Positions 732 to 64,000 of a DNA stretch of 64,000 bases are shown piece by piece (positions within the stretch are counted from its first letter, which is position 1; each line of letters opens with the position of its first letter). The notes under the pieces were generated by a model. The model did not search any database. It saw nothing but the letters and a program-made list of their open reading frames with translations, and was not told the origin of the DNA. The DNA lies in contig NC_136008.1 in NCBI RefSeq assembly GCF_048128805.1, positions 15,665,572 to 15,729,571 of the forward strand. Direction: 5' to 3'. Position numbers and translations under genes: made by a program. This DNA is from Centroberyx gerrardi. Taxonomy: Eukaryota > Chordata > Actinopteri > Beryciformes > Berycidae.

Positions 732-3663
732 ACAGCCGGTTTCCAGGAACTCCTGTCCGACGCAGAGATACTGGCTTTGATGGTTGGCTGTCTGTGCCAT
801 GATTTGGACCACAGAGGCACCAACAATGCATTTCAGGCCAAGTAAGTCACTGGGGTACAACTGAGGTACAATGATGGACTAGGTGTCTCAGGTGGATTTA
901 GCTCCACTACTGTGTTTTCCCCTGCAGGACAGGCTCTGCTCTGGCACTGCTGTATGGGACGTCAGCCACGCTGGAGCATCATCACTTCAACCACGCAGTC
1001 ATGATCCTACAAAGTGAGGTGAGACCAATATTACTTATATGTTCACCAATTGGGCATTATATAAGTCAGTCTAGGCCATATATCTGTCTTCCTTTTGTGG
1101 TCTTTCTTTGCTTTTATTGACTAAGCAGCTGAAAGTGTGTAATTGTAACATGGTTGATACTCTGTACCACAACAAATTTGTGTAAACTTACTCCTACATA
1201 AAAATAACATTTAAAACTTTAAAATTTGAATAATTATTTACTATAGCCATTGAATTGGATCCTTTTCAAGTGAAGGATCAAATTAGTTGGTGCATAATTA
1301 ACTTTCCTTGTCACATGGTGCCGGTGGGTGGGTGGTTTGCGGTTTGAGCCTGGCTGCTGAACACAAAGTGCCTGCCAGTAGCCAGTGACCACTCGTGACA
1401 TAATGAGGCTGCTTTGTCTCAGGTGTAGGTCAGATCTTAGTTTGATCACCAGGAACTGTGTTCTCCATCGATTTCTTTTAACAGAGGACAGAGAAAGTCT
1501 ATACCCATTGCTAATTAACATTGCTAATGGGAGCTTCACTGACAGTGAAAGATGAGTTTACCAATACATCGTCTTAAAGAAGACATTGTAGGCAGAGTTA
1601 CTTCCCTGCTCTTGTGTCTTTGCCTACTGTAGTGTGTGTATTGCTTTTTTTTTTTACACAGGGTCACAATATCTTTGCCAACCTCTGCTCTAAAGAGTAC
1701 AGCAACATGATGCAACTACTGAAGCAGGCCATTCTCTCCACAGACCTCACTTTGCACTTTCAGTAAGTGGGCCTTTTAAAATGAGCTTGCTAAATAGTAA
1801 AACTGAAATAGATTATTACAGATTATTAGATAGATTATTACAACTGAAATTGAAGTGTATTTTATTATGTTTTATTAAAAAGATGTGTGTAAAATGTCAT
1901 CTTGGAGTACATTCTGTAAAATATAGACTTTCCTCTGCCTCTGAACAATTCTTGTATCCTTGACTGTCTCTCTGCATTATAAGGCGCAGGACTACATTCT
2001 TTGAGTGTGTTCTGTCTGGAGAATTCAGCTGGACAGATGAAGGACACCGAGAAGTTCTCAGGTATCTGTTATTTTACAAAATAAAATGTCCTTTGCAAAA
2101 ATCACTTTATCTGTGAAAAGCAAAACAAACAGCTATAAATGAGCCTTGGTGCCGTCCACAGGTCTATGCTGATGACAGCATGTGATTTGGGTGCCGTCAC
2201 TCGTCCATGGAAGATATCCAAACAGGTTTGAGTCCCTACCTCAACATTTCTCACATCTGTGCTTTCAATTTTGAGGACTTGGAGCCATAAGAATGTAGGT
2301 GGCATTGTGGCAAAAATGTGCATAGTACAATGATAGTACAGTGCAGGTAATGCCATGCAAAGAACAGTCTATCAACCAGGCATTCGAGTGACACAAGTTT
2401 TGTCTCACAAAATTCTTTAATTCTATTTATTTCTACTTCACAACATTTGAAAAAGGTGGCCACTGCAGTATCAGTTGAGGATGAATGCAGGATAGATGAT
2501 GTCTGGAAAGCAAAGGCATCAGTGATGCCTGTCCAGACCTGACAGTGCCTGCCACTGTAGACAAAAAAGCTCTGACTGAGCTCTAGTACAGAAAAACTTC
2601 ACTGAAATCATGACCAAAAGTGAATTTTTGCATGAAAATATCACAAAATTGCATCAGACTTACACCCTTTCTGGCTCTGAGCGCTTGGTTTGATGTCAGA
2701 AGTCTTACTCGTTGTTTCTTCATAGATAATGATGATTTCCATTGATATCCCAAGGTTGCAGAGCTGGTGACCAGCGAATTCTTTGAACAAGGTGACAGGG
2801 AGCGGTCTGAGCTGAAGCTGACTCCAGCGGTACGCACAAAGCCACAACCTGCAAAGTCTCATCTTCCACTGGGATTTTAGAGCTCTGTCCGCTTGTATGA
2901 AGAGCCATCAAAGCTAAACTCCTACCATGATCATTTTGGCTTGCACAAAGATTTTTGTCTTATACTCAATCATTATTATGGATTTGAGTCTAGTTCACAA
3001 TCTAACCCTCCTGGGGACTCAAACCATAGGTCTTTTGTCAAACAATTGTTGCAGTTTGGTAAGGCATTATGATTGTTTTTGATGGTGGATGATAATAACC
3101 GAAGCTTATCACCTCTCTGTAGGCCATATTTGACCGCAATCGCAAGGATGAATTACCTGCCTTACAGCTGGAGTGGATTGATGGGATCTGTAAACCCCTT
3201 TACCAGGTAGATAACCCTTGAGGAAAACTTCATTTCAACCTTGATAATTGTGAATTATTATTTGGGAGTTGTTAATTTTCCCCAGAGGATCTGAGAGATC
3301 AAGTGTGTCGTACTGTGTCTCTCCCAGGCACTGGTGAAACTGAACAGGAAGCTGCAGCCGATGGTCGACGGGATAGATGCCAACAGAAGGAAGTGGCAGG
3401 AGCTCTGCTCATCCTATCAGCAGACACGCAGAGCCTCAGTGTCCAATCTGAGCCCTGAACCAGGTCAAAATCCCATGTTAAGAGAAGATACAGAAACAAA
3501 TCAACACCCAGAGTCCATAGAGATCCCGAAGTCTGGTGAAAATGCCAAGTTTGGGTCAAATTCTAAGTGCGATCAGGATCTGAGGTGCAGTCCAAACACA
3601 GATTCCTGTCATGATCAGGTGCCAGTTGGCAACATGACAAATGGACAGCTCTTAGAGGAGTGA
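732..3663 (+). CDS. pde11al: PDE11A-like dual-specificity cyclic nucleotide phosphodiesterase, C-terminal part (8 exons)
   Basis: Partial gene running in from the left edge. Coding exons: 732-841, 928-1018, 1662-1762, 1984-2061, 2162-2225, 2755-2829, 3123-3206, 3328-3663 (TGA at 3661-3663). All have AG/GT borders and the frame stays open for 312 residues. The product is the class I PDE catalytic domain: the metal-binding [10 protein letters not shown] motif in the first exon, [10 protein letters not shown] in the second, TACDLGAV (metal-ligand Asp) in the fifth, and [10 protein letters not shown] with the invariant substrate-binding Gln in the seventh. As I remember the families, the match is closest to PDE11A ([23 protein letters not shown]), which hydrolyses cAMP and cGMP. 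The GAF domains and the first part of the catalytic domain lie outside the window. The tail after the catalytic core (about 80 residues, Ser/Pro/Asp/Asn-rich) looks longer than in mammalian PDE11A and unrelated to it. The 2755 acceptor has a weak pyrimidine tract but keeps frame and homology. The 'al' symbol (HOXA-linked fish paralogue) is inferred from position. Confidence 0.93.
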
Positions 3664-43500: not shown

Positions 43501-46500
43501 GACAATATTGCTGCATGAGCAAAAATTTACTTAACAGATTACAGTGTACTCCTCTACTGACATGCAGCACCACCAAAGGGATTTGGACTTCCAGTCGACA
43601 AAGATAAACTTGCAATGACAGAAGAACGCTTCACAGGGGGAAATTAAATTATGTGAAAAAAGGCGGATACAATATGTTCATGATCTGTAGTGCAACACAG
43701 ATTGACACAGCGATAAAATTTTGCGGGGAAAAGTAGCTTTGGGGTCGGACCTGGCAGTTCTTCATAGATGTCATCGTCGATGGGCTCAGGCTCGGCTGCA
43801 GCAGGCCCAGCAGGGCCGACATCATCATACATCTCCTGATCCTCCTCCTCTTCCTCTGGGATGATGCCTGTCATGTCTACATAAGAGAAAACATGCACAT
43901 ATATCACACATGGATTCATGCAGGCACACACAGAGAGTACGGGGTGATAATATATAGAGAATTTTGTCCATAGTTGGATTTGCGCTCATAAAGAAACAAA
44001 GGTGGGTGCTACTGATACTATAGAGTGTGATAATGTGGTCACATAATTGAAATTGTTCAAACCTTTCAAAACAAAGTCTATCTGTTTCACCCATTCCTCC
44101 GCCTCTTTCGGAGATGACGCACAAAACTGTGATGAAAGAGGAGAGAAATGAAAACTGCAGTCAGTCCAATATGCAGTTATACATATATTAATTAACATAA
44201 ACAAATAATACTGCATTTATGCATAGTAAAATGTTCCACATGGAAGAGCCTGAATGTGTTAGAAACAGTCATTTAGGCTTTTTAAATATGCGTGTCAGGT
44301 TGAGCCATTGCAAAGGTAGCAGTGTCAAGTGAATGAATAGGTTTTAAAAATAAAGATTTAATGAAGTGCAAGTACACACGTAACTTGCCAAGTTTTAAAC
44401 ATGGTACATCTCAAGTCCACATTTGGTTTTCATAGAAGGGTTACATTTAGACTACGGACAGTCAAACTATCGCCAAGAGACTAGCTTACCTGATAAACTC
44501 GCTTGTCAGGAGCCGAAATTTCAAAGCAACAGTCTTTCTTTGAATCTTTCCGTAAGGTGCTGTTCATTTTGACATTGTACCCATCAATACCAAACTCGCC
44601 CTTCTGCTGCTTGTCTGTTTAAAAAAGGTTCAAGACAGCACTAATTGTTCAGAAAGAGACCATCATCAAAAATCTGAGAAACAAAAGCAGAATACCAAAT
44701 ATCCATCCACTTTGATATTTCATCCAACATGTGTTTCATAATAGAGCCATGCATCTTCAACTAATATCAATGGGAAAAAAACAACCTGCAAATACCTTTC
44801 TCACTGCCATAATAGTAGAATGTATGGTTGCTTAGAGCACACCATCTCTTCTGCCACTCGGTGCCAAAGAAGCTGTGATCTACAAAGGAAAAATAACAAA
44901 GCACAAAAGAGGCACATCATTTATGTTTTTTAGGTAAATTGCCCCTCCCCTCCAGCAAAATAAATTCTTAATGTGTATCTTATGAACAGGGAACCCACCC
45001 TTCCTGCGTTTCTCGAGGTATCCTGCCTTAAACACAGACAGGAGGTCCTGAGCCGCCACAGGTGGAGACTGCTGGGCACCTGGAGAGGAGGTCAGAGGAG
45101 AAACTTCAGTTTAGCACTTAAAAATACTACTGCTTAAGTGTTACAGCGATTCGAGGTTTGAAAGTGGCACAGCAGAAATGTCCCACTATATCATAAATCC
45201 TAATGCTACTGTCAAGTCCTTTCAATATGATTTTAATATCTGAAAGTCACATGTGAAAGTCAAATTTAACGTTAGGTATGATCAGATGGGTTTTTGGATA
45301 CTTTGTTTATCATGTACTAGGTTGATTGTTGTTAAAATTGATAGCAGAGGCCCTGGAAAGTACACTGAACAATGTTTTGCTTCTCAGTAGAGGAGATTCC
45401 CTATGCAGAGTGCAACTTCAATGCAAATGTTCAACTGCTGTGTCAAAGTTGCTTTGTGTGAAAGAGTGGCCATAAAACTGGCAGCTGCTTACAGCCCATA
45501 AAACCCGGACCCCTAACCACCATTTCACAAGGCTTTCCCTGATACTCCATTTAAAAAGGTAAATACAAAATCTTGTATAGATTACCATGGCGGAGCATGC
45601 ATGGTTAAGGCTACTGTATATTGAGGAATGTGTTTTCTCAAACTACAGCCACGGCAGTAATTTTCGGTCCCTATAGGCTGTGACTGGGAGTAATAAAGCA
45701 TGCTCTAGCTGTCAAAGAGGTGGGGTGAAAGGGGAGGTGGGAGTAGCAGTTGTGCCCCCAAATTGCTTCCCAAGTATGTTGCCAAGTTACAGTTGGAATG
45801 TCTGCCTCATTGTGGCCCTCAAAACCACTTTCTCCAAGGTGCAGACTTGAAGTTTTGTGTATTTATTCATGCCAGGATGCAATTTTCAATCGTTTAATCC
45901 ACCACAGGTTCACAGTTAGCAGGCATCCAAAGCTAAGTGGCTTACATTACCTTCACAACCCTCATCATCCTTGTCTGCGCGCTCTGAATGCAGCGACCCT
46001 CCATCATTGTTGCTGTCAACCTCGTCCTCATCATCTGTATCTTCTCCACCTAGTGGGGTAGAGAAGGTGCTGGGTAGTGATGGCGAAAGTTATGGTGCAA
46101 TGTATGTAAATACAGACCTCAGAAATACCCAACAAGAAAGACTAACACTCACTTTTGTCCTTGAAATCCTGTGGGAAACTGTTTGGGAGACAATAAATGG
46201 ATAAAATAGCTTTCATATTTTGCATCAGCAGCAAGACTCAGAATAATGAGTGATATTTTGTAACACAACTCCAACACCAGGAAAACTGAGATGTAGAAAG
46301 TGTGCACGCATACCCCAATTTGACATCTTTTATCCGTTTAATGAACACCTCCCTCTTCTCTTTTGCCTTCTTGCTCAAATTTTCCGCTTTCAACCCATCA
46401 GAGAGGAAGGTTTCTAGATCTAAAAAAAAAAAAAAAAGGAAGGTAAAGTATTTACATAACCTAACACCACAATTAAGTTTATTAGTCTACTGATTGTCAA

Positions 46501-46943
46501 CAATTAATGCTTGAAGCCAGGTGGTAGAAGCCTGCTGGCCAGTCATTTGGGCCCAGTGACTGTTGGAGATCATGTTAAATTTCAGAAAACTACGCCCACA
46601 CAACAGCAGTTTCCAGCTTTGACTGTGCATTGTTTGATGCTTTTCCGCAGGAGCTAATACCAACAGTGTGGTGTTTTGCTGTGTGAGCAGCAACCGGACT
46701 CGCCCCACTGAACTAGTGCACTTGACTGATGGTAAAACAAAACTCAGTCATCCATGTTGTGTTTGCGCTTCCTCTTTTACAAAGCGGTCTCTTAAAACCT
46801 GGGGTTACTCAGATAAAGCCCTTAAGGACAGGGGAAAACATTAGCCTACACACACACACACACACACACATAGATGGAATAATTTGGGATTTGTGTTAAG
46901 TACCTGAAATAAGCGTCGTTAACTCCTCGGGAATCGCGCGCAT
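39224..46943 (-). CDS. skap2: Src kinase-associated phosphoprotein 2 (SKAP2/SKAP55R adaptor)
   Basis: Twelve coding exons, 5' to 3' on minus: 46943-46904, 46419-46314, 46178-46153, 46049-45951, 45079-44999, 44879-44796, 44614-44490, 44126-44063, 43876-43751, 43489-43415, 42652-42540, 39316-39224 (TAA). They sum to 1032 nt, 343 residues, with matching phases throughout. The N-terminus ([19 protein letters not shown]) is the helical dimerisation region, shorter than in mammals. An acidic linker is followed by the PH domain (about 107-211: [60 protein letters not shown]). Candidate Src-family phosphotyrosine motifs are MYDDV and IYEEL. A Pro-rich linker precedes the C-terminal SH3 (about 282-341: [25 protein letters not shown]-type [16 protein letters not shown]). 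SKAP2 links integrin and immune-receptor signalling to actin through ADAP/FYB. Position and orientation, tail-to-tail with snx10 and beside the 3' end of HOXA, match mammals. Intron 11 is the largest, 3.2 kb. Confidence 0.96.
40454..40555. repeat. Compound (TG)n microsatellite in skap2 intron 11
   Basis: Two (TG)n blocks (about 40464-40500 and 40508-40532) separated by GAGATAGTGTA. Confidence 0.95.
41596..41612 (+). promoter_or_regulatory. Consensus CTCF site in skap2 intron 11
   Basis: TGGCCACTAGATGGCAG; the core at 41599-41612 matches CCASYAGRKGGCRS at all 14 positions. It is the best CTCF match I found in the window. CTCF sites beside HOXA mark domain borders in mammals; occupancy here is inferred. 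Confidence 0.6.
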
Positions 46944-47088
46944 ACTGATCGGCGTTGACTGGCAGCGATGGACCGTCCAGCAGGGGAAACTAACTTCACA
47001 CAACACGGAAGCAACGGTGGGCGCAGGGACGCGGAAGTTACCATGTCAATTATTTATCACTGACCTGCACTGTAACTGTTCAGCTGCA

Positions 47089-47090
<2 letters not shown>
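46944..47090 (-). promoter_or_regulatory. skap2 5' UTR and promoter region
   Basis: Sequence just upstream of the skap2 ATG is richer in CG than its surroundings (CGCGCGC near the start, GGGACGCGGAAG near 47025). It ends at a (CA)n microsatellite (about 47091-47139). No TATA box evident. Confidence 0.4.

Positions 47091-47139
<49 letters not shown>
47091..47139. repeat. (CA)n microsatellite upstream of skap2
   Basis: About 24 CA units about 150 bp upstream of the skap2 start codon; another shorter (CA)n lies at about 46851-46870 in skap2 intron 1. Confidence 0.95.
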
Positions 47140-47142
<3 letters not shown>

Positions 47143-48595
47143 TCACATGTGATACTTGGTGAAGTTTATTAGTAGCTTTTATTATTTTTTTAATCCTAAC
47201 CGCTGATGGATTTCATTCACTGTTGGCAGACTGGTAAAAAAGACAGTGGGTGATGCTTTAATGGACCAGCGGATCTTTACGACTAATAAAGTCAAGGCAT
47301 AATGTCATGATAATATTTTTGATTGATCCCAGATAACATTTCTCTGGCACTTCAGGCTGCTTATATCCAATTCCTCCATCCTCGAGCAGGAGACACACTG
47401 GGAGTGTCTTTTTTTTTTACAATCATACTTTCATTTTATGAATATGTCAACATTGTAAATCTAAAGAGGGATAATTACCACTACACAAGACAATTATATA
47501 GAACTGTTTGCAGATTATAGAGGTCTTCATAGTTGATACCTTTTTTGGCTGTGAGCAATAAAACTCTGTGAGGTAGCTTACCTATAACTTAATGCAGATT
47601 CACAACACTCCTGCTGCACTTTTATCTCAATAAATTACCTTTAAAGGTTGGCTTCTTGTGTAAGAGACTTTTCATCAGTTTCCATTGCTCTATCAATGAA
47701 AAATACAATTTCCCATGGTATTTGATGTGTCCATCAACGCACCACAGGCCTATGTATGATCTTCTGAAGCAATGCCTGCAATAATAAACCCCAAAAACAC
47801 TTAAGATGGTCAGAAAATAGTGAATCAAATGACTCTGTTGCAGCCCTCATCAAGTATAAGTTGTGCTCAATGATGTATTCAAGGAAAGGAGCCTGTTGTC
47901 ATATTGTTTACAGAACTGTCAGTCATTCATTAGTCATCTTCTGACAAGCTGTATCACCCAATCCAGGTTAAAAGACTGAGCCTTTGAACTGTATAGCCTA
48001 TTGTTCGGGAAATACCTACAAGTGAGACAGAAATGTCAGTGCAGCTGTGTGTGAAGAGCCTCAGCCCTGCAGCTGGTGCACAGTGTTTGTTGCTGCTGCT
48101 CGCTGGAGCTGAAGGGAGAGCGGTGTGCTGCCGGACAGACAGATTCTCTCAAGACATGTTTCACGTTGTTTCTGTCACTCCAGGTTCAGTCCTGCAGCTT
48201 TGTAGAGACGGACATGGACTTCCTTACAGTATCCAGTGTTTATTAAGTTTCTCATTTGTCCTAACTGGAGAGGAAAGAGTGTATTTGATGATATAAACAT
48301 TTAAGATGATGAAAGAATAGACAATGGTAGAGCATACACAGACTGTGCTGTGTGGTTCCAATACTTTCCCTTTATATCTTTCATGAAACATTTAAATCTT
48401 ATAGGTCCATATTCATAAAGCTTCCCAAATAGGAGCTGGAAGTTATTGTCATGTGACCCAATTAAACCTCAGATCAGTACTACTTTTCTGATATTATTTA
48501 TGCATACATTTTCTGATGTCACATCCTGTTCGGCATTATCTGAGCAGCCAATAAATTCTTTATGAGGCAGAATCACTCTATGGTCATTCAAAACC

Positions 48596-48612
48596 TGACC
48601 CCCTCCTGACCC
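48596..48612 (-). promoter_or_regulatory. DR5 retinoic acid response element candidate
   Basis: On the minus strand GGGTCAGGAGGGGGTCA: two identical RGKTCA half-sites spaced by five bases, the arrangement bound by RAR/RXR. It lies 2.3 kb 3' of the hoxa2b stop and between hoxa2b and skap2, the relative place of the well-known Hoxa1 3' RARE in mammals. Confidence 0.6.
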
Positions 48613-48655
48613 GCCAGGACTTCCACCCTGTTGGGTGAGGAGATGAGAGGCAGCT

Positions 48656-48668
48656 TGACCTTTGACCT
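48656..48668 (-). promoter_or_regulatory. Perfect DR1 nuclear-receptor element
   Basis: On the minus strand AGGTCAAAGGTCA: two perfect AGGTCA half-sites with a one-base spacer, 43 bases from the DR5. DR1 sites bind RXR heterodimers, COUP-TF and HNF4. Confidence 0.6.
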
Positions 48669-50884
48669 GTGTGTGCATGTGTATGTGTGTGTGTGTGTGT
48701 GTGTGTAGAGGAAGGGATCTACAGGCATGGTGTTCTATCTAGTTTCCCACAAAGCTTCATCTAGTTGCCTGTAGGCTCACAAACGTCTCCCTCTGATTGG
48801 CTCCCTTCCCTTTCATCAAACTCATACAGGTTTGCAATCCACTATAACAGCATGTTGTCCAAGCCTCACTCATTTGGTGAATGAAGTAAAACTGAACTAC
48901 ACAAAATACATAATTAAAACATATAGCAATTGAGATATCAATCAAGAAACCTCTTAATATAGTAAAAGAAAGAGAACAATATCATAATGGCCCAATCTGA
49001 TTTATTTTATGCTCACAAAAAGAGACAGGCCGAATCTGTGTTAACAAATACGTTTCCTGACTAGTGTATGGGGAAAAAAAGCATAGGGATTTTTAATGGA
49101 ATAAAACAACAGGAGATATATAAGGCTTAGGGTTATTATAGCCTTTAGACATTGGTCATACTACTAACACTGGTCCTAAACAGTGGAGTCCTATACGTTT
49201 AGAGTCAGCTCAATGGCTGCAGCACCAAACCAACGTTGACTGACTGGCTGCCTTGTGGGCTCACTTGGATTATCCTACTTAGGTGGTGTTTTCAAACTGC
49301 GCACAATTAGCCATCACTTAATATCATATCTCAGCTGGAATGGTAGTTCACCACCTCACCTCACCTTTTATTAGCGCTGGGCCCAGCCGAGGAGTCGAGA
49401 GTAAAACATAATTAGAAAGAAAGCCAATAATCTGCAATTAACTCTATAAATTCATCCTATCACTTATAGGCTGTGTTCAGCAGATTTGATCAATAATTTT
49501 TTCGTCATTTTTGGAACAAAGTAGGCTGTACCTTTTCACACCGATGATTTATCAAACCTTTTTTCCCCCCCAAGCCTATAAGAATAACAGCAACCACTAA
49601 AGCTGGCAGACGCCTCTCTATCTGGGCAACGAAGCCGAGTTTCAACTGGTCAATACGAGGAACTCTATGAACACTTTTGGGACGAAATCAGCAATTTTGC
49701 ATACATTAACATTATAGCCCATTACCTACGGGAAATAAAGTGAATAAATACCGAGTGCTATTTGACTTGATATCTGAGGATGTTGTTCTTAACTATTATG
49801 GGTTCAACGCCCAATGAAAATATAATTCATAGCCTACACAGCCAATTAATTAAAAAAAAAATCTCATGTAGACTGAAATGAATGACTCCTGTACAGAAAT
49901 TTTAAATATAGAAAGTTTTGAAAATGACAAGGGCGCAAGGGCGCGATTCTTAATTCAAGGAGATTGTATTACATTGCGGACCAGGCTATAAACAAGCACC
50001 CTCAGCGCTGTGAGTTTTATAGGCAATAAAATTTAATTGTAGAAAGCCAACAAAGTCATAGCTTTTGGCCTGGAACTCCTAGCAGGCAATTCCCACTGCA
50101 AAACCCTTTTTCTGGGCTCATGCATGCACCGAGGCAATGAATCTCTTAAATGTCTTCTATTCTGATGATGAGGGACTAAAAACACTACAGGCCTATTAGC
50201 TCCAAATTCCTCTGCCTTAATAAAACTTTTCTCATAACCTACTACTTTACAACGACTCTCATGAAAAATTTAGACTGGGATTCCTATATAATACCATTTG
50301 TAGGCTATTTCATTTGTATTTCATTTGTGTTTTACCATGCACATATGACTAATTGTGATTTAGGCAGTTCGAGATTATAAAATGAACAGTAGCTACTAAT
50401 CATGCTAAGTTTCACGATAGGCATCATTTAGAAAAGTCCCTGTGGACTTTGTGCGTTAATTGTTATAAATAGCGTATTTTTTCCCCTTTGAATATTGAGA
50501 GAAACTATTTAGTTTAGACACAATTTATCTCTCCTATACCCAATACTCAACGTCCTCCTGTGTTTCTAATGTAAGCAAACCAATAGGCTCTCCAAACTTT
50601 CTTATTGTGAAATAAGACAATAGAGCAACTGATTACAACCAATGTAAAGTTTTATTGCAAGAAAATATTCTGCTCAGTTGTAGTCTAAATCCATATAAAA
50701 ATAAACTGTGTGATGTCCTCTCGCAGCCTAATGGAATAAACAGACCACAGGATAGTTTGCTGTTTTTTTTATTAACTTACCTTATTTGCGAGATCTATCA
50801 ATGATTCCCCCCACGCTAAAACTGACTACATAGATTAAACAGAAGGCTTTGAATAAAAACAAAAACATTTCTATTGATGAATTA

Positions 50885-52430
50885 TTAATAGCTCAAGTTT
50901 TGCAGGTCGATTGTTGTGAGGGTTTCTGAGAAAAGGTCAAAACTTTCGGTTGATAAAGGCATGGGGGGACTTAGTGAATCTGACAAACTTGGAGAGAAAG
51001 AGGAGGGTGATGAGAAAACTTGGAAATCCTGCAAAGAGACGTCCAGGCCCGGGGAATTATCATTGTCCGGGCCTATTGTCGACACGCAGATAGGAACAGT
51101 GGGTGACGGGTTTGGAAAATGTTTCAGATTTTTGTCATTGCTGTTTAAAGGCGTAACAGCCGGGCTTTGGTTATCCCCATTGTGCCCATTCTGAGACTGT
51201 TGTGAAGTTAAGGTATTTTGGTGGAAATACCTCTCCCTCTCCCTCTCCAGAAGCGTCCCGGGCGCGCTGCCGTTTGCCGCCTGCTCAAACTCGTCCTCCG
51301 GCCCGTCGTCCAGACACGCGTATTTCCCCTCGCTGTCCCGGTTCTCCTTGCAGTGGGTTTGCCTCTTGTGCTTCATCCTCCTGTTCTGAAACCACACTTT
51401 CACCTGCCTCTCCGTTAAATCCAGTAATGCCGCTATTTCCACTCGCCTCGGCCTGCACAGGTATTTGTTAAAATGAAACTCCTTTTCCAGCTCCAGCAGC
51501 TGAGTGTTGGTGTACGCCGTCCTCAGCCTGCGGGATGCCCCTCCGCCGCCGCCGCCGCTCTCTAGTATCTCTGGAGAACCTACAAAAAAATAATAAACGA
51601 ATGAGTAGAAATTTTCATTAAATTCAGAGGCTGGAGATCAAAAATAAAAATGTAACAGGCTAGTTGTGTGTGGGGTAAAAAGAGGCTCTGTAGGGTGAAA
51701 CTTGTGGCGAACAAGCAACGGGGACTGGGAAGATTTATGGGCCCCGGGCAGAATATGATGGGTCTGCGTGGACAGGACGGAGGCTGAAGATTAATGAACA
51801 TGCCAGCTGCCGGCCCGTGTAAGAATAATCTATCACTCTCCATTACTGTCAAACATTAGCACTCTTACACTGCATCACAAGTCAGCGCGTTACTTGATGA
51901 GATTAAGCATGCTTAAATCAAAATCCGTATACGGGCTCAAAGAGACGCCCACGCTGCAGAAGACAGGCCCGGGCTCCAGCTCTGCTAACAGAGGGGAATA
52001 TGTGGGGGAATCCTCAGACAATGAGGAGCCTTTGGATGGAGGTTATTAATCATCATGTCTTGCCTTGGGGGGAGAAGTAGAGTGGTGGAGAGTCAGTCGT
52101 CGTCGCAGCAGCAGCAGCAGTGTGGTTTCTCTTGATGCTTTTCTTCTCCTTCATCCATGGGTACTCCGGCGGTGAGGATGCAGCCTGCAGCGGGCTGCAG
52201 CCATTCACAGCCTGCTTTGAGCGGCTGTGGCGTGGGTGGCTGCCCGGGTTCAGGCTGGGGATGGTCTGCTCAAAGGGAGGAGGAATCAGTGTCGACGGTG
52301 AAAGCGCCGAGCTCTTGATTGATGAACTTTGAAATGCATCACCGACAGGGTTAGTGAGAGATGTCAGGCACTCAGCGAGCGACGGCTGGCTGTTGATAAA
52401 ACCACTTTCTCGCCCAAATTCGTAATTCAT
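50885..52430 (-). CDS. hoxa2b: Homeobox transcription factor Hoxa2b
   Basis: Two coding exons: 52430-52064 and 51579-50885 (stop at the low end); 353 residues. The start is MNYEF, the family's conserved N-terminus ([28 protein letters not shown]); a frame extension nine codons upstream is ignored. PBX-binding YPWM is at about 90-93. The homeodomain, about 138-197, has [17 protein letters not shown] and helix 3 [16 protein letters not shown]. The C-terminus [10 protein letters not shown] is HOXA2-type. It patterns hindbrain rhombomeres and second-arch neural crest. The exon 1 end is notable: no GT donor fits, whereas CAAG/GCAAGA at 52067-52058 gives a GC donor that joins in frame to the TTTGTAG acceptor (51586-51580) as FSPQ-GSPEI, the junction I remember from fish Hoxa2b. 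Exon 2 encodes a Gly-rich linker just before the homeodomain. Candidate regulatory sites lie in the intron and just upstream. Confidence 0.96.
51731..51851. promoter_or_regulatory. Candidate rhombomere-4 type HOX/PBX + MEIS module in the hoxa2b intron
   Basis: Three HOX/PBX-like sequences on the + strand, AGATTTATGG (51731-51740), TGATGGGTCT (51756-51765) and AGATTAATGA (51788-51797), are followed by a PREP/MEIS core CTGTCA (51846-51851). In tetrapods an r4 enhancer with several HOX/PBX sites and a PREP/MEIS site lies in the Hoxa2 intron; equivalence here is inferred from location and motif content. Confidence 0.45.
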
Positions 52431-52665
52431 CTCCTCCTTCTTTTCTTGAAAATTCACTGATTACAGGGTAATTTAGAGGGGTCTGAAATAATCAAAAATA
52501 TTAAGCAATTTCTGCTAAACTGGATATAGTCGTATGGAGACCTCTATGCCATAAACTATTGCTTTCATGAGGACATGGTTGGAATCAGACCGTGTTGCTT
52601 GTCACATGATTGCATCTGCCCAATGACAATTTGGGGTTTTTATCAAAAGAAGCCACTGTCCTCTG

Positions 52666-59488: not shown

Positions 59489-60809
59489 TTAATTGTCTCT
59501 CCGCCGGTCTTTGTTTCCTTTCTTCATCTTCATCCTGCGGTTCTGAAACCAGATTTTGACCTGTCTCTCGGTCAAATTCAGGACTCTTGCTACTTCGTAT
59601 CTACGGTCCCGGGGGAGGTACATATTAAACAGAAACTCCTTTTCCAGTTCGAGGATTTGGTGCTTTGAGTACGGGCAACGCTTTTTTCTGGTGGATTTTG
59701 CGTGAAGCCAGTTGGATGATGGGTTATCTGGAAATAGGGGGTCAAAACCATGAGACAAGAGAGTTCAGCATTGCTCTCAGTATATGACTCACAACAGAAC
59801 TAGCCTACTGCAATTTATTATCCAATTTGGGAAGGACATGCCATTGTAAGATAATACAGTCAGATCAGGACTATGTTGGCTCAGAAGTGAGTTCTTCAAA
59901 TCATCTTGAAGTGAAGCAGCCTTGAAAAAGTGTATATTTTTACTGAAAGCTATAACATGAGGCTGTCTGGCCTTGACAATAGCAAAATCCGAGCCTAACC
60001 CTGTTCAAAATAGTGTGCAGCTACACAGTGGAGTGCACCCACCACCCTGCAGAATGTGGATCTTATTTTCCAACAGATCAACTCACTGACCGACAGATTT
60101 TATCCACTGTATATACTCTCATCATAAGATATTTGCTAAAATGATGGATAATATTTTAGGGCCATTCTCGACTAAATTGGGCCTGTGACATCCGACATGA
60201 ATCCTCCATCTCTTATAACGCCCTCACCTACACTAAAATGAGAGTCTGCCATAATAATGACCACAATAAGATCAAAATGCATCACTTACTTGCATCTATT
60301 TCCCTCTTTTCTTCAGCTGGCGGGCTCTGCTCGACGGGTTTAGACGTGGATGTCGTCGTATCGCACGCAATCTCCGTGAGGGACGCTCCGTTTTCAATGT
60401 CAGACAAAAGAGGTGTGTGCGTCTCCAAAGTTGTACATTCAGCGCTCCCAATCACAGGCTCGGATTTGATATCATAATGCATGGTTGTGGACGGTAATCC
60501 CGTTAAACACAAGGACGCAGAAACTGGGTCCAACGCCCAGGAGCGCGTAAACATTCCATCGGTGTCTCCGGTCGTGTAATGGTGATGTATATAGGTTGGA
60601 GTTGCTGTGCTTGGAGGATGGGCCGAGATGGGACTCCAAGATCCACCAAAAATAGAGGATTTCGCCTGCAAAGGGCAAGACTCTTGTCCGCCATATTCAG
60701 TCAGCATCGCCTGCTCCACCCCTGCAGCTGATGAGTACCTCGGTGCCAGATCTTCCTGCTCGGGAAGAACACGCGAGTCAACATAATAACTTGTTCCCAA
60801 CGTCGACAT
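59489..60809 (-). CDS. hoxa9b: Homeobox transcription factor Hoxa9b
   Basis: Two coding exons: 60809-60290 and 59727-59489 (TAA 59489-59491); 252 residues. The start is [12 protein letters not shown], the conserved HOXA9-type N-terminus; eleven upstream in-frame codons are ignored. Exon 1 ends at a GTAAGT donor (GCAA/GTAAGT) and exon 2 starts after TTTCCAG, giving [14 protein letters not shown] at the junction, which contains the PBX-contact Trp. The homeodomain, about 186-245, has [38 protein letters not shown] and [16 protein letters not shown]: AbdB class, paralogue group 9. A Pro replaces the usual Thr in MYLTRDRR and Ser the usual Thr in PYTKHQ. It acts in posterior axial and fin patterning. 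The intron is 562 bases, and miR-196 lies 1.3 kb upstream on the same strand. Confidence 0.96.
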
Positions 60810-63326
60810 GGCAAAAAAATGCAAAGCGTTACAGTGCTGCAATATTTAGAAAAAAACACATTCATTGCATGGTCGCCTGCTGCTTTCCTGCACCAGGAGC
60901 TCAATGCGTCCAGTAAGTTGAACCTTGCCCAAGACTGGATAGGGCGCCCCAAACACGTGACCGTGGGACAGAACAATAAATAATAAATCAGCCTGCTGCT
61001 CAACTAAATGGCCACCATTTTCCCCACCATATTTTAATAGCAAAACCCTACGCCTTTATTGGGATATATTTCGTTTTATAAGCAATAAACGTTATGATTT
61101 TTGTCAAGAGATCTTGTGTTAGTGTAATCGAACATACTTGTGATTGGGGGTTTGGCAACAGAGGTAACATCACTTTAAAGCCTCTAGTTGTGAAAATACT
61201 AAACAACCAATTACCTTTAAAAAAGTTTTATATACATAAAATCCCAATGGGTTCATTTATTTAAAAAAATCATAAACTTATTATGACCCAATAACCAGAA
61301 AACTCTTGTTTTGGAAAGGAAATGTTTGGTTGCCTTACTTGTTAGTGGTTGGTATATAAAAGATTTTCAAGGTTTAAAAAAACAACAACAATAAAACAAG
61401 CTGATCTAAAATGTATTTGAAGGCCTATTAGAGTTCACAATGCCAGAAAGTTGTGAACCAAAAGATGCACATTAGGGTGTCTGCAATAAGGTCTAGGTCT
61501 ACTTTTAAGGCAATCTAAAACGGAAAGTGGGGTGAGGTTATTTGGGTGCTATATAACAGTCCGTTTTATCACGGGCAATTGGGTTGTTTTTCTTTAGGTT
61601 ACAACCTGGCTGTCTAAGCTAAATATCACCAATAAAGCCCATCCTTTGTGTCCTTTCTCTGGCGCAAGCAGACGCATCCGGCTTTTACGGCGAGGCGTTG
61701 GGACAGACTGCAATGATCATAACCGAGGCCTTGTCTGTCCTTTCCCCCACTCTGCACATACAAGCCTAATCCTCTTACTTTTGTACTTCTTGTTGTTTAG
61801 ATATAGTGGCTCAAACTGCTATCCACATGTAGACTTATAGACATGATGCAGAAAAGAAATGTAACCTTTTCCACCCAAGTTGATGATTCTGACTTTACTT
61901 AAACAGATAGCCCATGCGTAAATAACAGTCATATGGATCTAGCTTCATATTTTTACAATGAAAACCCACAGTAAAATTTGTCCGTATCAATAATATTCTT
62001 TACGCACAGCAACAAAACACATCATGCTATTTCATTTTTTTGGAATAAAGCATTTGTGTAGTTGATGCAGTCTGTGTCGAATGATGAAATTAATCAGTAT
62101 TTCAAAGTAATTCAGTTTTCATGATGCGACGAGTTTTACTGAGGTAATCAAGGCAGTTTCGTGTTGTGGGAGAAAACAAATATAGCCCAACAACATGAGA
62201 CTACCTAAACCACTCAACAGCCCACTCTCCTCTTGAGGAATATGCTCAATAAAGTTTTTTTAAGATGTGCAAAATGATGTAATCTTTTGTCCTATAATAA
62301 GCCTAACTGTGGCAATTTCAGAAAACCGAAAATGGCCAAAAGATCAGCGTTCATCAGGCAGATTCCATTCGTGCTGTATCACGGAAATCATATAGTCTAA
62401 TATTCATATTAAGTGCGGCAATTTTGGCAGGATTTTGCCGCATTTTAGACCATAATGTTCAAACCAGCCTCCCCAGACACTGCCGTGTCTAATTAATACA
62501 TAGAAATGACAATTGAACAATTTTACCTACGATGACTATCTAATTAAATCCTCGGGAATGTGTATTGCCATTTTGGCAATAACAACCCATTCGCAATACC
62601 GCAGCCAAAGAAATCTCTGGTGTGAACTAAACATGTGGTTCACAGGTAGGCCTAATGTCAGAGAGAAAGCAAGAAAGTGTGCACAGCCGCCAGACACCTA
62701 TTACAGGCCTGTAGCCAAACTCTGTGAAGGACATCACCCTCTACTATTGTAATAATATTTACTGTGCACTAAGCGGACCTAGTTAATAATACAAAGGCAT
62801 TAGCACCCGTAGGCTATAGGCTACCTGTGCCAGCTTGCCCAAATATGTAAATAGCGCGCAACTCCTATTCTTTCTTTTTGGATACAATAACAAGTCTGCA
62901 GTTGCAGGGCATGATTTTATTAATTTGACCAGCAAAATGTGCAAATATTTATCAAACCTCTTGGGTTCTTTAGATGTGACATAAAAGCCTATGTTACTAT
63001 AACATGAAAAATCCCAAGGGTTAGTCCAGCATGCAAATTCCAATGGTTCACTCAAGTTGACTATACAATATGTACAAGCCTAAAGCTCTGAAACGTGTCA
63101 CATACTGAACATTTTATACACAATGGATTAACGTTACAAATGTAGCCATTTATAAATACATATCCACGACAAATAAAACAGATGTGAAAATAAAATTTTC
63201 CAAAAGAACAACAATCAATAAGTTAGCAATAGGGTCCTGTTTTCCAGGGACATTCTCACAGTTGGGCTTGCTCTGCACAGGCAGCCTTGCCATGGATGGA
63301 GGAGGGCGCCAAACACCCGCACAGTC
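60810..63326. other. hoxa9b-hoxa10b intergenic region
   Basis: Contains the hoxa9b 5' flank (CACGTG E-box within AAACACGTGACC, 60952-60963), the miR-196 hairpin and AT-rich unique sequence. 61030-61100 holds several CDX/posterior-Hox type motifs (CTTTATTGG, TTTTATAAGCAATAAACG). No protein-coding homology seen. Confidence 0.5.
62149..62207 (-). ncRNA. mir196b: miR-196 precursor hairpin (mir-196b position)
   Basis: Minus strand, between hoxa10b and hoxa9b, the classical miR-196 location. The mature 5p arm is 62207-62186; its first eight bases, TAGGTAGT, carry the intact miR-196 seed and the whole 22-mer differs from miR-196a only at position 9 (C for U). The 3p arm is 62170-62149 and contains CACGAAACTGCCTTG, resembling known miR-196b-3p. 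The arms pair along nearly their whole length with one bulge and two mismatches, round a 15-nt loop (62171-62185). miR-196 represses Hox8-group and other Hox mRNAs. Confidence 0.9.
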
Positions 63327-63601
63327 TCATGAGAAATTGAAGTTGTTGGAGAGCTCTCGGATCCTATTTTCCCGGCTCATTTTTTTCAGTTTCATCCTCC
63401 TGTTTTGGAACCAGATTTTGACTTGCCTGTCAGTGAGGTGCACACTGCGGCTGATCTCCAGACGACGCTCTCTAGTCAAGTACATGTTGAAGAGAAACTC
63501 CTTCTCCAGCTCCAGAGTCTGGTGCTTGGTGTAGGGACAGCGCTTCTTTCGGCCACTCTTAGCTGTGAGCCAAGTAGCCGTACTTTCGATCTTCCCATCT
63601 C
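63327..63601 (-). CDS. hoxa10b: Homeobox transcription factor Hoxa10b, homeobox exon (partial)
   Basis: Last coding exon only, 63601-63327 (TGA 63327-63329), preceded on the minus strand by acceptor TCGTTGCAG and starting in phase 1. It encodes about 91 residues: a [16 protein letters not shown] lead-in (the W-containing PBX motif is TWL where paralogues have NWL), then a homeodomain with [38 protein letters not shown] and [16 protein letters not shown], and the C-terminus [17 protein letters not shown], diagnostic of group 10. Exon 1 with the N-terminus lies past the right edge; 63602-64000 shows no coding sequence and is intron. Hoxa10 acts in posterior axial and fin or limb patterning. Confidence 0.96.
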
Positions 63602-64000
63602 CTGCAACGAAAATAAGACAGGTATTAGGCAACAGGTGTGACCAAAACAAAAAATCAAATCTAAGACCACAGAATGTTTTCAAGGTTTTCGACATAGCCT
63701 CGGCTATATGGGCAAATATGAAATACGAATAGGGCTGAATCATATCATTGGGTGAAATGATAATTTATCTAGGTTAAAGTTAGCCCATAACCAAAATCAG
63801 TAGAACCTGGAACTGTCCAATATTTAAAAAGATGACCCGTTTCAAATGCTCTCAAGTTTAGACAGTAAAGATAAAGCAATGTTTAGTGAATGGATTCCAC
63901 TGGATGAAGTGTCACCTATACTACATACTAATATTTTTTCTTCATAATAGGCTATATAGACCTAACGACTGATTTCTGTTCTATTTATTTGGCAAGTAAT
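63602..64000 (-). other. hoxa10b intron (to window edge)
   Basis: AT-rich, no frame matching a HOX10 first exon, so the exon 1 donor must lie beyond 64000. Confidence 0.6.

Follow-up and report, generated by a model that had tools for sequence, protein, structure and literature searches.

A DR5 and DR1 motif pair between skap2 and hoxa2b of Centroberyx gerrardi as a candidate retinoic acid response enhancer

Background

The mouse Hoxa1 3' RARE is a DR5, GGTTCA-CCGAA-AGTTCA (chr6:52153426-52153442, mm10), whose conservation is marked as far as frog in Table 2 of PMC7259794, with fish left unmarked in that table. A second survey found no obvious homologue of this element in the fish examined, and reported at what is likely zebrafish hoxa1a a DR5 of the opposite sense (PMC4009813). 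The Hoxa1 row of the same Table 2 (PMC7259794) contains a second DR5, GGTTCA-AGAAG-AGTTCA (chr6:52175533-52175549, mm10), which the table marks as conserved to fish. By their coordinates, the two mouse elements are about 22 kb apart. We take the second of them to lie on the Hox-cluster side of the 3' RARE.

The mouse Heater is located between Hoxa1 and Skap2. On either side of it, some 50 kb 3' of Hoxa1, are H-AR1 and H-AR2, two regions bound by RAR/RXR (PMC4510006). The mouse e-site enhancer overlaps the Skap2 TSS, and its deletion lowers the retinoic acid-induced expression of Hoxa1; it is said to carry three Rara peaks, given in that report as data not shown (PMC6649716). Expression of mouse Skap2, which is listed within the Hoxa1 TAD, is changed in the Aldh1a2 knockout (PMC7259794). 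Next to the paralogous gene, a RAR-bound DR5-like site in intron 4 of zebrafish skap1 drives retinoic acid-dependent, hoxb1b-like expression, and the TR4 motif, a superposed DR1 and DR2, is the second of three top motifs in RAR ChIP peaks from zebrafish endoderm (PMC8608873).

Elements for Hoxa2 expression have been described in exon 1, in the intron and upstream of the gene (PMC5831782), and in human a superenhancer region for Hoxa2 has been placed some 1.5 Mb from it (PMC10762089). One review calls it unknown if every predicted RARE of the hindbrain Hox genes is active (PMC6767176). In neoteleosts, HoxAb is given as the sole cluster in which conserved non-coding sequence does not peak towards the anterior end; the data sets behind this result took in 3 kb past both cluster ends, and the figure may not count the flank beyond hoxa2b (PMC2080641). 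The literature that we covered contained no report of the DR5/DR1 element described below.

Results

Gene content of the window

The window, by which we mean the whole 64-kb stretch of Centroberyx gerrardi DNA that was analysed, carries skap2, followed by hoxa2b and then two more homeodomain exons; skap2 and hoxa2b are both on the minus strand. The features on which the gene layout is based are as follows.

39.2 to 46.4 kb, minus strand: skap2 coding exons lie between these positions (tblastn)
46310..46420, minus strand: second coding exon of skap2, ends approximate (tblastn, 73% identity to human SKAP2)
46904..46943, minus strand: likely first coding exon of skap2, then a GT donor (single candidate, pattern search)
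46944..50884, no strand: skap2-hoxa2b gap, 3.9 kb
50885..52460, minus strand: hoxa2b overall (two open frames)
50885-51637, minus strand: hoxa2b exon 2, open frame with homeodomain match
52053-52460, minus strand: hoxa2b exon 1, open frame with YPWM
59489-59764, minus strand: homeodomain exon, read as hoxa9b
62141-62216, minus strand: mir-196 precursor (Rfam RF00256, 69.8 bits)
63327-63764, minus strand: homeodomain exon, read as hoxa10b

The query for the skap2 exons, in both the tblastn and the pattern searches, was a human SKAP2 sequence. The likely first coding exon is spanned by a small CpG-rich stretch (46900-47099, CpG observed/expected 1.07) that is probably the skap2 promoter. We assigned the name hoxa2b from gene order and sequence, and the exons at 59489-59764 and 63327-63764 are presumed, from their sequence, to be hoxa9b and hoxa10b. 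The mir-196 precursor sits between these two exons, as expected for mir196-Ab. At the skap2 side of the window, an open frame on the plus strand (3295-3663) resembles a coding exon of another gene. The gene set as a whole fits a teleost hoxab cluster; the hoxab BAC of Senegalese sole holds snx10b, skap2, hoxa2b, hoxa9b, hoxa10b, hoxa11b and hoxa13b, among others (PMC9774920, as listed in Table 3).

The interval that corresponds to the mouse Hoxa1-Skap2 region has shrunk in the window to the 3.9-kb gap. Searches of 46944-50884 with the hoxa2b and hoxa9b homeodomains drew no homeodomain-like stretch, so the gap contains no hoxa1b homeodomain relic, a result that covers homeodomain relics only. 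This much of the initial annotation is supported: the motif pair lies between skap2 and hoxa2b, and no hoxa1b homeodomain remains there.

The DR5 and DR1 motifs

A new scan for half-sites recovered GGGTCA-N5-GGGTCA and AGGTCA-N1-AGGTCA on the minus strand, 43 bases apart, exactly as first reported. A further half-site on the same strand lies nearby.

48454..48459, minus strand: fifth same-strand half-site, GGGTCA (motif match)
48596..48612, minus strand: DR5, GGGTCA-GGAGG-GGGTCA, candidate RAR/RXR element (half-site scan)
48656..48668, minus strand: DR1, AGGTCA-A-AGGTCA, perfect consensus (half-site scan)

The DR5 is made up of two direct RGKTCA half-sites with a five-base spacer and the DR1 of two such half-sites with a one-base spacer, the DR1 consensus being of the type recognised by RXR, COUP-TF, HNF4 and TR4 receptors. 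Both repeats read 5' to 3' in the coding direction of hoxa2b and skap2. The DR5 precedes the likely skap2 start codon by 1653 bp and follows the hoxa2b stop at a distance of 2273 bp. The CpG-rich stretch at the start of skap2 does not extend to the pair, and the DR1 borders a TG microsatellite. The fifth half-site falls just beyond a 210-bp span, within which the maximum number of half-sites observed is four. It is overlapped by GGTCACATGAC (48448-48458, minus strand), which is similar to MITF/TFEB-type E-boxes. Searched with consensus forms, 48300-48900 yielded no Pbx/Hox, Meis, Krox20, Maf, Tcf/Sox, HNF1, CTCF or Oct site, and gave, as raw counts, three Cdx-like matches and one GATA-like match.

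Neither repeat is significant alone, because 0.23 DR5s and 0.23 DR1s are expected per 64 kb; at least one DR5 was present in 23 of 100 dinucleotide shuffles and at least one DR1 in 22 of 100. The window has six RGKTCA repeats when direct, inverted and everted arrangements with spacings of 0-8 are counted together. The only direct ones are our DR5 and DR1, and there is no other DR0-DR8 of RGKTCA anywhere in the 64 kb.

The frequency of such a pair was estimated from 128 Mb of simulated sequence under each of four background models: order-4 window, order-2 window, order-2 gap and order-1 local (601 bp). In these counts, calculated post hoc once the pair had been noticed, the number of DR5s that began within 100 bp of a DR1 was 0, 0, 0 and 2 in the order of the models just given, and four same-strand half-sites within 73 bp arose 11, 7, 7 and 48 times, or 0.0055, 0.0035, 0.0035 and 0.024 times per 64 kb. 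When the window was simulated 400 times at order 4, no DR5 fell within 100 bp of a DR1, a DR2, another DR5 or an IR0, and 75 bp never contained four half-sites on one strand. Extrapolated to the several hundred Mb of a fish genome, the rates from the 128-Mb runs give dozens of four-site clusters by chance. The DR5 and DR1 are unremarkable singly and unusual as a pair, and it is as a pair that the observation is stronger than the initial annotation made it. DR5-like sites with one mismatch number 5 in the window, against 5.25 expected; since this is the chance level, the window has no wider RARE array.

We compared the DR5 with published elements by means of a weight matrix constructed from 11 distinct rows of the 12 DR5 rows in Table 2 of PMC7259794 (one row duplicated another). 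The window DR5 ranks first among all window positions, whether the spacer is ignored or included. Its half-site score of 17.6 compares with 14.9-20.5 for the 11 published conserved mouse RAREs, and the next-best position, a site with one mismatch at 61273, scores 14.91 and just touches the published minimum of 14.86. The second half-site of the window DR5 starts with G, a position at which 10 of the 11 published DR5s used have A.

Comparison with described elements

Like the mouse Hoxa1 3' RARE, the window element is of the DR5 type and lies towards Skap2 from the first Hox gene. The mouse element adjoins Hoxa1, which was not found here, and the two DR5s differ in the spacer and in the variable half-site bases. 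Nine of the 12 half-site bases are equal, eight of them forced by the consensus, and the elements share one of the four free half-site positions and none of the five spacer bases. The window DR5 has neither the core sequence of the mouse element nor a near match to it, and nothing in the 64-kb window is within three mismatches of it. Because the spacer, the free bases and the mismatch search all fail to match, there is no sequence support for descent from the Hoxa1 3' RARE, and the pair is probably not an alignable orthologue of that element. The second DR5 of the Hoxa1 row is also an A-cluster DR5, and it has nine of 12 half-site bases and three of five spacer bases in common with ours, but just one of the four free half-site bases is equal, and again the 64-kb window holds nothing within three mismatches of it.

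The window DR5 does share with the Hoxa1 3' RARE a location between skap2 and the first 3' Hox gene, though this location is not specific, because other RAR-bound mouse regions would collapse into the same gap. H-AR1 and H-AR2 are RAR/RXR-bound, have several DR motifs and lie 3' of Hoxa1; they differ from our pair in bordering the Heater, a region of non-coding transcription, some 50 kb from Hoxa1. The e-site, which has reported Rara peaks and acts on Hoxa genes, resembles the candidate pair in being tied to the 5' side of Skap2, and differs in overlapping the TSS and working through a long loop. The skap1 intron-4 RARE, on the HoxB (hoxbb) side, is likewise a site for nuclear receptors that flanks a Hox cluster towards a SKAP gene. 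It differs in being intronic and 25 kb from its cluster, in its conservation between zebrafish and human, and in having been tested by transgenesis. Of the proposal that the pair occupies the slot of the Hoxa1 3' enhancer, the shared interval therefore stands and its specificity does not. The further step of identifying the pair with that enhancer is unsupported, given no common spacer base, one of four free bases and two surveys without a fish homologue.

Discussion

What we observe directly is the two motifs with their spacing, how rarely such a pair arises in the background models, and the arrangement of the genes around it; the pair belongs to a known kind, that of the RARE-like candidate. 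Our tentative reading, to which we give a little less than an even chance, is that the pair is a candidate RAR/RXR enhancer that would serve hoxa2b, skap2 or the two together, and not a recognisable descendant of the Hoxa1 3' RARE. It is suggested by an exact DR5 and an exact DR1 that are the sole DR0-DR8 repeats in 64 kb yet stand 43 bp apart, a combination rare in four models; by a DR5 score that is within the published range and the top of the window; and by the precedents for RAREs in SKAP-side Hox flanks, in skap1 intron 4 and at the mouse e-site. The TR4 motif in zebrafish RAR peaks also fits a DR1 beside a DR5. The same reading is weakened by the second half-site that starts with G, by the site at 61273 that reaches the bottom of the published range, by the post hoc computation of rarity, by the position of the DR1 beside a TG microsatellite and by the lack of an anterior conserved maximum in HoxAb, and also because the Hoxa2 elements described in PMC5831782 and PMC10762089 lie elsewhere than next to the gene on its 3' side. 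The HoxAb result (PMC2080641) additionally hints against strong conservation of the pair.

We regard it as somewhat unlikely that the pair has no retinoic acid function, being either a run of half-sites that is neutral or due to chance, or a target of other receptors only, such as HNF4, PPAR or TR4 at the DR1. Consistent with this are the expectation of about 0.1-0.3 copies of each repeat singly per window, the dozens of four-half-site clusters per genome extrapolated from 0.0035-0.024 per 64 kb, the one-mismatch DR5-like sites at chance level, the absence of an anterior maximum of conserved non-coding sequence from HoxAb (PMC2080641) and the doubt left by a review over the activity of all predicted hindbrain Hox RAREs (PMC6767176). 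The pairing is nevertheless rare under every background model tried, and its setting, the flank of a Hox cluster, is one with known RAREs. Transposable elements with nuclear-receptor half-sites are known in other genomes, and in principle the pair could be part of a copy of such an element. A blastn search with 48380-48780 found no second copy within the 64-kb window, and we consider this origin very improbable. The same segment had no match among plasmid sequences, and hoxa2b gave nothing confirmed among prokaryote and viral contigs; as such collections are not built to include fish, these blanks carry no weight on conservation.

Three further readings would connect the pair with a described element. 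That a retinoic acid enhancer of the HoxA 3' end outlived hoxa1b and passed to hoxa2b and skap2 seems unlikely to us; the sites would have been rebuilt from GGTTCA/AGTTCA to GGGTCA/GGGTCA and a new DR1 added, so that function was kept while identity was lost. Descent of this sort is compatible with the sequence difference because sites can be rebuilt. It is distinctly unlikely that the pair is the counterpart of the mouse e-site, by analogy with which it would be a skap2-anchored element controlling skap2 together with Hox genes close by. Of the two genes skap2 is the closer, its likely start codon being 1653 bp from the DR5 and the hoxa2b stop 2273 bp; the e-site lies at the Skap2 TSS with claimed Rara peaks and a deletion that lowers retinoic acid-induced Hoxa1 (PMC6649716), and Skap2 expression is altered in the Aldh1a2 knockout (PMC7259794). 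On the other hand those Rara peaks are given as data not shown, and the window pair is not part of the CpG-rich stretch where skap2 begins. Quite improbable, finally, is an orphaned Hoxa1 3' RARE, descended directly from the unduplicated HoxA cluster, retained after the loss of hoxa1b and now driving hoxa2b. The DR5 type, the general interval from skap2 to the first Hox gene and the gap without a remaining homeodomain are as such an origin would have them. Against it are the five spacer bases with none in common, the single free half-site base shared with the mouse element, the window without a site within three mismatches, two surveys that do not find the element in fish (PMC7259794, in its Table 2, and PMC4009813) and a position common to other RAR-bound mouse regions.

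If the pair is the candidate RAR/RXR enhancer that we tentatively favour, RAR/RXR on the DR5 would confer a retinoic acid response, and RXR, COUP-TF, TR4 or HNF4-type receptors on the DR1 may tune it. From its place in the gap such a compact enhancer could control hoxa2b, the promoter of skap2 or the two of them, and the RARE could have newly arisen or been rebuilt after the 3' side of the hoxab cluster had collapsed or while it did so. Receptor binding, a response to retinoic acid and the target genes are in this account what we infer.

Should the pair reflect chance, it would be an example of a motif in the right neighbourhood that is easily misread as an orthologous enhancer. If it binds RAR in embryos, retinoic acid would act at the 3' end of a cluster that has lost its group 1 gene, and one could test directly if the regulatory inputs of Hox genes are a property of the cluster flank or of a single gene.
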